Origin: Kosakonia radicincitans DSM 16656
GTDB lineage: Bacteria > Pseudomonadota > Gammaproteobacteria > Enterobacterales > Enterobacteriaceae
Assembly (NCBI RefSeq): GCF_000280495.2
Contig: NZ_CP018016.1
Span: 806,001 to 870,000, forward strand
DNA: 64,000 nt
Reading direction: 5' to 3'
The stretch's first letter is position 1. Every line of letters begins with the position of its first letter. The translations under genes and the position numbers were made by a program. Shown in pieces: positions 15,591-19,991 of the stretch. A model generated the notes under the pieces. That model did not search any database, was not told the DNA's origin, and was given only the letters and a program-made list of their open reading frames with translations.

Positions 15591-17582
15591 ATGTCCTCAC
15601 GTAAAGAGCTTGCCAATGCTATTCGTGCGCTGAGCATGGACGCGGTACAGAAAGCCAAATCCGGTCACCCGGGAGCCCCGATGGGTATGGCGGACATCGC
15701 CGAGGTCCTGTGGCGTGATTTTCTGAACCACAACCCGACGAATCCGGCCTGGGCCGATCGCGACCGCTTTGTGCTGTCCAACGGCCACGGTTCGATGCTG
15801 ATTTACAGCCTGCTGCACCTCACCGGCTATGATCTGCCGATGTCCGAGCTGCAGAACTTCCGTCAGCTGCACTCGAAAACTCCGGGCCACCCGGAAGTGG
15901 GTTACACCGCGGGTGTGGAAACTACCACTGGTCCGCTGGGGCAGGGCATTGCCAACGCCGTGGGCATGGCGATTGCAGAGAAAACTCTCGCAGCGCAGTT
16001 CAACCGTCCTGGGCACGAGATTGTTGACCACTTCACCTACGCCTTTATGGGCGACGGCTGCATGATGGAAGGCATTTCCCATGAAGCCTGCTCCCTGGCC
16101 GGTACGCTGAAACTGGGCAAACTGGTTGCGTTCTACGATGACAACGGCATCTCCATCGACGGCCATGTTGAAGGCTGGTTCACCGATGACACGGCGAAAC
16201 GCTTTGAAGCCTACGGCTGGCACGTAGTGCGCGGCATTGACGGCCACGACGCGGACGCCATCAAACGTGCAGTGGAAGAAGCCCGTGCTGTTACCGATAA
16301 ACCGTCGCTGCTGATGTGCAAAACCATCATCGGTTTCGGTTCGCCGAACAAAGCCGGTACCCACGATTCCCACGGTGCGCCGCTGGGCGATGCTGAAATC
16401 GCTCTGACCCGTGAAGCGCTCGGCTGGAAATACGCGCCGTTTGAAATCCCGTCTGAAATCTATGCACAGTGGGATGCGAAAGAAGCCGGCCAGGCCAAAG
16501 AAGCGGCGTGGAACGACAAATTCGCCGCTTACGCCAAAGCCTTCCCGCAGGAAGCCGCTGAGTTCACCCGCCGTATGAAGGGCGAACTGCCGTCTGATTT
16601 CGATGCCAAAGCGCAGGCGTTTGTCGAGAAGCTTCAGGCTAACCCGGCGAAAATCGCCAGCCGCAAAGCGTCGCAAAATGCCATTGAAGCTTTCGGTCCG
16701 CTGTTGCCGGAATTCCTCGGCGGCTCCGCTGACCTGGCGCCATCCAACCTGACTATCTGGTCCGGTTCGAAAGCGATTAACGAAGACACTGCCGGTAACT
16801 ACATTCACTACGGCGTGCGCGAGTTCGGTATGACGGCAATTGCCAATGGTATCTCGCTGCATGGCGGTTTCCTGCCGTATACCTCGACCTTCCTGATGTT
16901 CGTTGAATATGCCCGTAATGCGGTGCGTATGGCGGCGCTGATGAAACAGCGTCAGGTGCTGGTTTACACCCACGACTCCATCGGTCTGGGCGAAGACGGC
17001 CCGACGCACCAGCCGGTCGAGCAGGTAGCTTCCCTGCGCCTGACCCCGAACGTCAGCACCTGGCGTCCGTGTGACCAGGTGGAATCCGCAGTGGCGTGGA
17101 AATATGGCGTTGAACGTGCTGACGGTCCGACTGCGCTGATCCTTTCCCGTCAGAACCTGGCGCAGCAGGAGCGTACGGCACAGCAACTGGCAGATGTCGC
17201 CCGTGGCGCCTACGTGCTGAAAGAGAGTGCTGGTCAGCCGGAACTGATCCTGATTGCTACCGGTTCCGAAGTGGAACTGGCGGTTGCTGCTTATGAAAAA
17301 CTGACTGCCGAAGGCGTGAAGGCGCGCGTGGTTTCCATGCCGTCGACCGACACCTTCGACAAACAGGATGCGGCATACCGTGAATCCGTGCTGCCGAAAG
17401 CGGTTTCTGCCCGTGTGGCTATCGAAGCCGGCATTGCGGACTTCTGGTACAAATACGTCGGCCTGAACGGCGCGGTAGTGGGTATGACCACCTTCGGCGA
17501 ATCTGCTCCGGCAGAACTGTTGTTTGAAGAGTTTGGTTTTACCGTTGACAATGTGGTGGCAAAAGCGAAAGCGCTGCTGTAA
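15591..17582 (+). CDS. tktA: Transketolase A
   Basis: Transketolase moves two-carbon ketol units between sugar phosphates in the non-oxidative pentose phosphate pathway, using thiamine diphosphate. The protein is 663 residues from [10 protein letters not shown], identical in length to E. coli TktA; a 39-residue upstream extension without family similarity was rejected. The cofactor motif GDGCMMEG...NGISIDG lies near residues 154-190, and conserved histidines appear in [14 protein letters not shown] and [16 protein letters not shown]. Downstream epd provides and uses erythrose 4-phosphate chemistry, and rpiA lies in the same window. Confidence 0.98.
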
Positions 17583-17591
17583 CCACTCTTG

Positions 17592-17709
17592 CCCGGCGGC
17601 GCTCCGCCTGCCGGGCCTGCATGAAAAGTCATTTCGGATGGCGCTTGAGCATTATCAAGTCTACGGGGTTGCAGAATATGTAGACCGGATAAGCGAAGCG
17701 CCATCCGTC
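17592..17709. repeat. REP/BIME-like palindromic repeat cluster after tktA
   Basis: Directly after tktA comes a strong hairpin (GCCCGGCGG...CCGCCTGCCGGGC, 17592-17617), then two inverted REP-type units: GGATGGCGCTTGAG near 17637 and TGTAGACCGGATAAGCGAAG starting at 17679. Their opposite orientation makes a BIME-like unit. Such elements stabilise or terminate upstream transcripts and can bind gyrase in E. coli. Confidence 0.7.
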
Positions 17710-17803
17710 ATTCAGCTATACCCCTAATCTTCTGCCTCCTGACCCAACACTCTCTTCTTAGTGACTCGACTAAAACGACATTGATCCGTGCATGAAAAAT
17801 ATA

Positions 17804-17819
17804 CTGGATATACATCCAG
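17804..17819. promoter_or_regulatory. LexA (SOS) box before the antirepressor gene
   Basis: CTGGATATACATCCAG is a near-perfect palindrome that fits the LexA pattern CTG-N10-CAG. Its GG/CC positions match accepted SOS boxes such as that of ruvAB. It ends seven bases before a TATAAT (17827-17832), so a bound repressor would cover the -35 region of the promoter for the gene at 17878. Confidence 0.75.
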
Positions 17820-17877
17820 TAAGTTGTATAATAATTCTGCAAATTATCCAGGGTGAATGTGAGTAAGGAGTGAACCT

Positions 17878-18627
17878 ATGATAATTCCTGGTGACAATCT
17901 CAATTCTCAGCCTGTGCTGGCGACAATCAGCAGCCGTGAAATCGCAAAATTGACAGGCGTGACGCATGGCGAAGTGAAGCGGATGGTGAAAAGCCTGGAA
18001 ACCGCGCAGCGGCTCTCCCAGCCGGTGAAAGAGCACCCGTACGAGCGAGAAGGCGAGATGCGACAAGAATTTTTGCTTAATAAACGAGACTCATTGCTGA
18101 CGGTTTCGCGCCTCTCGCCGACCTTTACGGCAGAAATGCTCGATCGCTGGCAGGAGAAAGAGAAGCTTATCAGTCTGCCCGATTTTACGAATCCTGCCGC
18201 CGCCGCACGCGCCTGGGCTGAGCAGTACGAAAAACGTCAGCGAGCGGAAGAGTTACTTGCTCTCTCAGCCCCAAAGGCGGAGTTCTTTGACCGCTATGTC
18301 AGGGTTGAAGAGTCGCTTGGTTTTCGTCAGCTTTGCAAGATGCTGCGCGTGAAAGAGTCTCTGTTCCGACGCTTTTTGCTTGAGCGCAATATTATGCAGC
18401 GTGTAAACGGTGCATTGATGCCGCAGCAGTACCATATTGATGAAGGTTACTTCACTGTCCATGGTGGCGTCGGGGAAAACAAACGTAGCTGGTCTCAGGC
18501 GCGTTTCACCGCGAAGGGGGTGAAGTGGGTGGCCGATCTGTGGGCTAAGCAACTCTCGTCGCAGCCGGTTGAGATGCCGCGCGCAGAACGCACCGAGCCG
18601 AAGGCGCTGGAGCATAGCTGGTTTTAA
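17878..18627 (+). CDS. Phage-type antirepressor with KilA-C (ANT) domain, orphan
   Basis: The 249-residue product has an N-terminal helix-turn-helix-like segment of Rha type (about residues 17-45, TISSREIAKLTGVTHGEVKR), a charged linker with coiled-coil character (AEQYEKRQRAEELLAL), and a C-terminal KilA-C/ANT-like domain (about 131-240, with FRQLCKMLRVKESLFRRFL and FTAKGVKWVADLW). Such proteins are antirepressors or regulators of temperate phages. Here it stands alone between tktA and epd with no integrase, structural or lysis gene. GGAG lies ten bases before the ATG, and a LexA box overlaps its promoter, so induction by DNA damage is expected. Domain call good; role inferred. Confidence 0.7.
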   Translation: MIIPGDNLNSQPVLATISSREIAKLTGVTHGEVKRMVKSLETAQRLSQPVKEHPYEREGEMRQEFLLNKRDSLLTVSRLSPTFTAEMLDRWQEKEKLISLPDFTNPAAAARAWAEQYEKRQRAEELLALSAPKAEFFDRYVRVEESLGFRQLCKMLRVKESLFRRFLLERNIMQRVNGALMPQQYHIDEGYFTVHGGVGENKRSWSQARFTAKGVKWVADLWAKQLSSQPVEMPRAERTEPKALEHSWF

Positions 18628-18762
18628 TCAGCGCCAGAAAAGGATTTTGCTTTTCTTCATCAACCGGGTCATGCAGGGACGCTTTGTTGCGCTCATCCTC
18701 TTTCTGTCGGTTATTTTCCTCACGAAAGAACCTTCTGGCCGCGCTGATTATTCCTGCAAAAA

Positions 18763-18971: not shown

Positions 18972-19991
18972 ATGACCGTACGCATAGCGATTAATGGTTT
19001 CGGTCGCATTGGGCGCAACGTGGTTCGTGCTTTATATGAATCCGGGCGTCGGGCGGAAATCACCGTGGTGGCAATCAATGAACTGGCCGATGCTGTGGGC
19101 ATGGCGCATTTATTGAAATATGACACCAGCCACGGGCGTTTTGCCTGGGATGTTCGCCAGGAGCGCGAACAATTGTTTGTGGGTGACGACGTAATTCGCA
19201 TCCTGCATGAGCGCTCAATTGCGGCACTGCCGTGGCGCGAGCTGGGTGTAGATGTGGTGCTCGACTGTACCGGCGTATACGGCAACCGTGAGGATGGCGA
19301 GGCGCATCTGGCGGCAGGCGCGAAAAAAGTGCTCTTTTCCCATCCTGGCAGCCACGATCTCGACGCAACGATTGTTTTCGGTGTTAACCAGGAAACCCTT
19401 CGCTCTGAAGACCTTCTGGTCTCTAATGCCTCCTGTACGACAAACTGTATTATTCCGGTCATAAAACTGCTCGACGATGCTTATGGCATTGAGTCGGGAA
19501 CGGTGACAACTATTCACTCCGCGATGCATGACCAGCAAGTGATTGACGCTTACCATTCCGATCTGCGGCGTACGCGTGCGGCCAGCCAGTCGATCATTCC
19601 GGTGGATACCAAACTGGCGGCGGGCATCACGCGAATTTTCCCGCAGTTTAATGACAGATTTGAAGCGATAGCGGTGCGCGTACCGACAATTAACGTGACC
19701 GCGATCGATCTGAGCGTAACGGTGAAAAAACCTGTAAAAGCTATGGAAGTCAACATGTTGCTGCAAAAAGCAGCGCGTGGGACATTTCATGGTATAGTTG
19801 ATTATACGGAATTACCGTTGGTTTCAACCGATTTTAATCACGATCCGCACAGCGCCATTGTTGATGGCACACAGACGCGGGTAAGTGGTGCGCACCTTAT
19901 TAAAACCCTTGTGTGGTGCGACAACGAATGGGGCTTTGCTAACCGGATGCTCGACACGACGTTAGCAATGTCGGCTATTGGTTTCAGGTAG
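18972..19991 (+). CDS. epd: D-erythrose-4-phosphate dehydrogenase
   Basis: Epd oxidises erythrose 4-phosphate to 4-phosphoerythronate with NAD, the first step toward pyridoxal 5'-phosphate. It is 339 residues, a GAPDH-like fold: the Rossmann motif [11 protein letters not shown] at residues 7-17 and the catalytic cysteine in SNASCTTNC (about residue 155). The order epd-pgk-fbaA is conserved; pgk follows after 48 bp, so they are probably cotranscribed. The ATG is preceded by AGGAG. Confidence 0.97.

Follow-up and report, generated by a model that had tools for sequence, protein, structure and literature searches.

A phage antirepressor-family gene under a conserved LexA-like box between tktA and epd of Kosakonia radicincitans and at other non-phage sites in part of the Enterobacterales

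The window analysed here is a stretch of 64,000 nucleotides from the genome of Kosakonia radicincitans DSM 16656 (6,122,453 bases in 3 contigs). Between tktA and epd it contains a gene for a 249-aa protein of a phage antirepressor family, preceded by a LexA-like (SOS) box that overlaps the -35 region of its promoter. Related copies form a clade that is placed outside phages in one copy per genome at nearly all loci examined, is under purifying selection, and has conserved the box. We hold with roughly even confidence that the gene is a domesticated phage antirepressor-type regulator that has become part of the LexA regulon in some Enterobacterales, with the repressors of temperate elements as its likeliest target. 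The features of the locus are as follows (coordinates of the window).

17597..18746, no strand: segment that has no equivalent between tktA and epd in two other Kosakonia genomes (G001 and G005) or in a genome of another genus (G015), from blastn alignment of the flanks
17802..17821, + strand: LexA-like (SOS) box TACTGGATATACATCCAGTA with 8-bp perfect inverted arms; matches the consensus and is kept across the clade
17805..17810, + strand: -35-like hexamer TGGATA within the SOS box, from a consensus scan only (10/12 together with the -10 element, spacer 16)
17827..17832, + strand: -10 element TATAAT, in a block largely kept among 61 clade upstream regions
17865..17870, + strand: ribosome-binding site AAGGAG, 7 bases before the ATG, read from the sequence; the following GTGAA block is largely kept in the clade alignment
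17878..18627, + strand: antirepressor-family gene, 249 aa, from the ORF, Pfam and PHROG matches and dN/dS
17926..18156, + strand: N-terminal pRha-like domain, residues 17-93 (Pfam, 29.3 bits against a cut-off of 29.9)
18250..18549, + strand: C-terminal KilAC/ANT domain, residues 125-224 (Pfam, 79.1 bits against a cut-off of 25.3)

The open reading frame is intact (ATG at 17878 and stop codon ending at 18627 in the ORF list) and is the only gene between tktA (stop at 17582) and epd (start at 18972). Its C-terminal match to ANT (KilAC, PF03374) exceeds the curated cut-off, and the N-terminal match to Phage_pRha (PF09669) is just below the curated value; precomputed Pfam assignments give this domain to many close homologues. 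Helix-turn-helix models produced weak matches at residues 15-42, all below their cut-offs. The best PHROG was phrog_63, 'anti-repressor Ant' (E 1e-48); NCBIfam contained no convincing model (best E 0.058), and a sequence search of solved structures with the protein yielded no convincing relative (best E 0.028). Antirepressor activity is attributed to the 249-aa protein because of its family, as annotated, and both this activity and its target are putative assignments taken from that annotation; no cognate repressor or other target was found.

By eye, the neighbours in the ORF list from 13 to 24 kb are ordinary chromosomal genes, and no phage gene was seen among them. The initial annotation, which described a KilA-C/ANT gene standing alone between tktA and epd with no other phage gene present, is thus borne out within this region. 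No mobility gene was seen beside the gene in the same by-eye reading of the ORF list, and no repeats flanking the insert were found; one direct (72%) and one inverted (75%) repeat pair lie inside or across it (repeat search). Between tktA and the box, positions 17634-17708 form what we take, by eye, to be a REP-like inverted stretch, which might bear on how the promoter and gene entered the site. The genome encodes no second ANT protein. It encodes five S24-type proteins, namely one of LexA size, three beside UmuD boxes and a 231-aa frame that appears CI-like by eye, and gave 16 phage-integrase-type matches, of which two fall in a single frame and one scores under the cut-off.

A CTG-N10-CAG box just before a TATAAT had been reported in the initial annotation, and both elements were located, CTGGATATACATCCAG at 17804-17819 and TATAAT at 17827-17832. 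The bare CTG-N10-CAG pattern is not significant in the window (22 matches compared with 15.8 expected, a number reached by 11 of 100 shuffles), nor is the promoter scan by itself (2 promoter-like sites compared with 1.1 in shuffles). TACTGGATATACATCCAGTA, in contrast, is the only match in the window with three or fewer mismatches to the LexA consensus as printed in PMC8072944, and no such match occurred in 100 shuffles. A LexA box overlapping the promoter, the arrangement that marks members of the Enterobacterales LexA regulon, is present at this gene.

In the whole 6.12-Mb genome, 14 sites have three or fewer mismatches to the LexA consensus, and the backwards control gave 0. Seven of the 13 other sites precede genes whose best NCBIfam matches are DinI, UmuD-type polymerase V subunit (three genes), SulA, SbmC and YebG; the YebG match is below its cut-off, and a truncated SulA piece scores above the cut-off of one SulA model (TIGR00623) and below that of a second. 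One site (L094, G000:C1:2706093; 3 mismatches) lies 21 bp before an alpha/beta-hydrolase-like gene, all NCBIfam matches of which are below their cut-offs and which, to our knowledge, is not an SOS gene. The remaining five are L084-L087 and L095. The genome contains two copies of the exact core CTGGATATNNATCCAG, the one at this gene and another that lies 52 bp upstream of a 203-aa ORF with a GTG start codon, read by eye as RuvA, in agreement with the earlier remark that the box resembles that of ruvAB. A chance match to the LexA consensus was considered as an explanation of the box and was rejected by the window shuffles, the genome-wide count and the clade-wide conservation described below. 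Four of the strong boxes (L085, L086, L087 and L095; G000:C1 near 642519, 1315669, 2042260 and 3629737, respectively) are located ~5-15 kb from integrase-type genes, so several integrated elements in this genome may have an SOS input of their own.

The related copies share 54-100% identity and form one clade apart from the phage and prophage copies. In a midpoint-rooted tree of 78 rows, 52 orphan-labelled loci and 7 further proteins are separated from 19 phage/prophage-type proteins with branch support of 100/100; the 'orphan' label needs five changes on the tree, since the seven proteins without it are nested within the clade. At the boundary of the clade, full-length identity drops from ~54 to 49% (best 120 of 406 proteins). 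Within the clade, the branching order broadly runs from Chimaeribacter/Sodalis and their kin to Mixta and Pantoea and then to Enterobacteriaceae. One member (P0032) is labelled Salmonella enterica and comes from a 4.68-Mb record, yet it branches with the copies of Enterobacter sp. ENT03 and Franconibacter, which may reflect either a mislabel or a transfer.

The distribution of the gene is patchy. Matches at 1e-3 were found in 15 of the 58 relatives searched, and the copy in G018 (L014) has 57% identity. Among the 15 Kosakonia genomes, 13 contain the gene (85-100% identity). In the family sample, 57 of 392 genomes, representing 21 of 154 genera, match at 1e-60, each of the 57 with a single match, and 335 have no match at this threshold, an absence that counts against the reading that we favour. 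At 1e-12, 30 of 394 genomes of the order gave a match; six of these have clade-type copies (67-100%), and the other 24 have copies of 27-45% identity only. A peptide-pattern scan of genome contigs gave 37 loci, distributed over records titled Kosakonia, Silvania, Pseudenterobacter, Leclercia, Phytobacter, Dryocola, Franconibacter, Pantoea, Superficieibacter, Mixta, Chimaeribacter, Sodalis and Enterobacter. None of 5,426 E. coli genomes has a counterpart at the tktA-epd place covering 80% of the query, and the 20 E. coli matches listed cover only the epd side of the query (1159-1381).

The box is conserved throughout this clade. A CTG-N10-CAG site with seven or fewer mismatches lies within 300 bp of 80 of 81 clade loci, and the exception, L107, begins at a contig edge. 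The 81 loci include some genomes fetched twice; after removal of duplicates, 65 distinct copies with upstream sequence remained, and all 65 have the box, starting at -89 to -73. These copies contain 38 different box sequences, with 2 (1 copy), 3 (6), 4 (16), 5 (20) or 6 mismatches (22). By contrast, a comparable box (seven or fewer mismatches, within 300 bp) precedes none of 34 distant copies (25-44% identity), four of which have a bare CTG-N10-CAG with 11-13 mismatches. The distant set comprises 23 copies from order genomes, six from relatives (prophage-like or distant) and five from phage records, 'distant' being defined by identity and not by a confirmed prophage location; L132, which gave no match, was left out of the count, and L130 has <300 bp of upstream sequence. 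The promoter is thus not visibly inherited from the sampled phages. In the alignment of 61 clade upstream regions, ACTGG and CAG are invariant, the -10 element and the Shine-Dalgarno sequence are largely kept, and the outer flank varies by genus. By eye, no sequence 3' of the stop codon is common to the genera in 28 loci, so the conserved unit appears to consist of the promoter and the gene. The comparison lends strong support to the proposal of LexA control made in the initial annotation, and such control is probable to the degree that sequence allows.

The initial annotation had suggested a search for the gene at the same place in related genomes, and all 13 Kosakonia loci (L001-L013) have it in the tktA-epd gap. 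The promoter and gene occur elsewhere in the other genera examined, in about a dozen chromosomal or megaplasmid arrangements (hand count). The neighbours, named partly by eye and partly from NCBIfam matches of flanking proteins, are trehalase-like, DUF1264-like and metallo-hydrolase-like genes in Leclercia, a 2-dehydropantoate-reductase-type gene in Phytobacter and 'Kosakonia sp. S29', a zinc alcohol dehydrogenase gene in Pantoea, a potassium/proton antiporter gene and a YeaH-type gene in Mixta, and chemotaxis receptor and phosphoketolase genes in Enterobacter sp. ENT03. As read, the flanks of the clade copies contain metabolic, transport or regulatory genes, and a comparison of ten flanking proteins from five loci with NCBIfam at E 1e-20 revealed no phage protein (two had no match). 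In Dryocola, Leclercia and Pantoea (L031, L029, L032 and L037), the DUF1264-like and zinc alcohol dehydrogenase genes are found repeatedly near the antirepressor-family gene, in differing order and perhaps as remnants of an earlier common neighbourhood. Pantoea accounts for 94 of the 223 matching plasmid records and for all 15 of those listed, 14 of which are >450 kb; on P. vagans pPag3, the neighbours encode 6,7-dimethyl-8-ribityllumazine synthase and MetQ.

In G001 and G005, both flanks of the tktA-epd gap align with ~90-120 other bases between them, and in G015 with ~150 (blastn). In an epd tree, G001 and G005 branch at two separate positions within Kosakonia, on support values of 57-80 (weak to moderate), and the basal pair L012/L013 has the gene; the simplest reading is two losses within the genus. 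The patchy presence, the many places and these apparent losses amount to accessory behaviour. We also weighed the idea that the gene is a single-gene accessory module that has spread laterally between genera and acts against other elements or in its own interest, e.g. by forcing out prophages or blocking lysogeny. The restriction of the conserved unit to the promoter and ORF, between outer flanks that vary from genus to genus, the copies on large Pantoea plasmids and the empty sites all agree with this idea. The window copy, however, has neither flanking repeats nor a visible mobility gene beside it, and the tree, judged from its branching order, broadly follows the families, so that frequent recent transfer is not indicated. 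We consider a laterally spreading module improbable.

Family members were also found in 727 of 50,697 phage records, all with <60% identity. The gene adjoins a CI-like repressor gene and replication genes in phiPSA1, follows lysis genes in ENT47670 and follows a methyltransferase gene in Flotzy. In three Kosakonia prophages (L142-L144), the family copy resides by eye among replication-region and lysis-side genes, and no SOS box precedes it in any of the three, so these copies do not visibly perform SOS-triggered antirepression. A box with 4 mismatches lies ~3 kb from the copy in L143 (L143:5891), and one with 3 mismatches ~2 kb downstream of the gene in the phage locus L104. At least three Kosakonia genomes that carry the gene (G004, G009 and G014) also hold a prophage-borne relative. 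A scan of IMG/VR for close relatives matched one stretch, at a contig edge: the viral contig L107 (IMGVR_UViG_2791355151_000001) ends in a Mixta-type copy that is apparently split by a frameshift and adjoins an integrase-like frame. This locus is the exception to the absence of phage genes near clade copies and argues against the favoured reading; it seems to represent a prophage integrated beside the orphan gene.

Because the family is phage-borne, no other use of the gene is proven and L107 adjoins an integrase-like frame, the gene might be regarded as a recent remnant of a decayed prophage with an open frame kept by chance and an old SOS promoter. We judge this very improbable. A remnant should show nearby phage genes or a decayed frame, whereas the window copy has an intact frame among ordinary neighbours, the clade occupies many non-phage neighbourhoods under purifying selection, and the distant copies lack the box from which an old promoter could have come. 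Across 78 Kosakonia pairs, the median dN/dS (Nei-Gojobori) is 0.076 and the largest value 0.19; by stretch, it is 0.40 for residues 1-14, 0.080 for pRha (15-100), 0.047 for ANT and 0.17 for the tail. Together with the single match per genome at 1e-60 and the ordinary neighbours at many sites, this selection gives strong comparative support to the earlier suggestion of recruitment by the host, and it is well supported that the gene is by now a bacterial gene.

The N-terminal domain appears nearly frozen in the clade and variable in phages, a comparison that is only suggestive because the phage-type set has only 19 members, from a mixture of hosts. Among pairs with an ANT identity of 0.55-0.75, the pRha identity is 0.72 in the clade (1,197 pairs, ANT mean 0.68) and 0.55 among the phage-type proteins (ANT mean 0.64 over 123 pairs). 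Apart from the initiator Met, nine residues are fixed in the clade (98-100%) and rare in the phage-type set, and three of these (E32, E41 and T42) are in the weak helix-turn-helix stretch. A fixed target would account for such freezing no less well than would a changing set of prophage repressors, which does not predict it, and the freezing thus weighs against a prophage-directed role. An SOS effector of phage origin that acts as a switch on a conserved gene or protein of the chromosome, and not on prophages, would also agree with the low dN/dS and with a branching that broadly follows the families. Against such a fixed host target are the absence of the gene from most family genomes and of a tktA-epd counterpart from E. 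coli, the roughly dozen different places, the apparent double loss in Kosakonia (on weakly supported branches) and the fact that no candidate target was found. We regard a fixed host target as rather unlikely, although it is a serious rival; prophage repressors remain the likeliest target, and the link to prophages is supported by the best PHROG, anti-repressor Ant, and by the trans-acting precedent described for the Gifsy prophages (PMC3121763).

Under the favoured reading of a domesticated antirepressor directed at temperate elements, LexA in an undamaged cell would occupy the box over the -35 region and keep the gene off, and DNA damage would lead to LexA cleavage and synthesis of the protein; LexA binding and induction would follow from known SOS biology. 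Acting by way of its KilAC domain and the pRha-like domain at its N terminus, the protein would then relieve the repression imposed by a phage-type repressor, the likeliest targets being repressors of resident or incoming temperate elements; action in trans on resident prophages, as previously suggested, is one form that this could take. Damage would thereby trigger or synchronise the induction of such elements, or disfavour lysogeny, under the control of a gene owned by the host. More broadly, and tentatively, it is possible that many Enterobacterales in several families own a host-controlled prophage trigger, a domesticated antirepressor kept as one chromosomal or megaplasmid gene and wired directly to LexA, so that, once DNA is damaged, the decision to induce or reject temperate elements would rest with the host and not with the prophage. 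A clade outside phages, with a LexA box in every copy that has readable upstream sequence and under strong purifying selection, would add an unrecognised member to the SOS regulon and, if the proposal is true, might provide a host-side switch over prophages. Because G001 and G005 naturally lack the gene at the same site, the proposal is directly testable.

SOS-controlled antirepressors are known as prophage genes. The phage Rha/KilAC proteins (PHROG 63), such as those of Escherichia phage Flotzy, Pseudomonas phage phiPSA1 and Cronobacter phage ENT47670, share the domain order with the Kosakonia protein at 40-44% identity, but their genes reside among phage genes, have no SOS box within 300 bp upstream (five phage loci) and encode a more variable N-terminal domain. 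Tum of phage 186 and the antirepressor of N15 are SOS-regulated phage antirepressors and, compared by description, are likewise under SOS control, but they are part of the phage. In literature searches among CC-licensed PMC papers for a chromosomal or orphan SOS antirepressor, none of the titles and abstract openings listed describes the family outside phages. A functional precedent is given by the Salmonella Gifsy antirepressors GftA, GfoA and GfhA, which, according to Lemire et al. 2011 (PMC3121763), are SOS-induced and can act in trans on the repressor of another prophage. The likeness lies in LexA-dependent expression and antirepressor class, which for the Kosakonia gene are predicted from sequence and family annotation. 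The Gifsy proteins are small and encoded inside prophages near a dinI homologue, whereas the gene described here, with no phage gene seen beside it, has tktA and epd as neighbours in Kosakonia and other non-phage genes elsewhere, and encodes a 249-aa KilAC protein.
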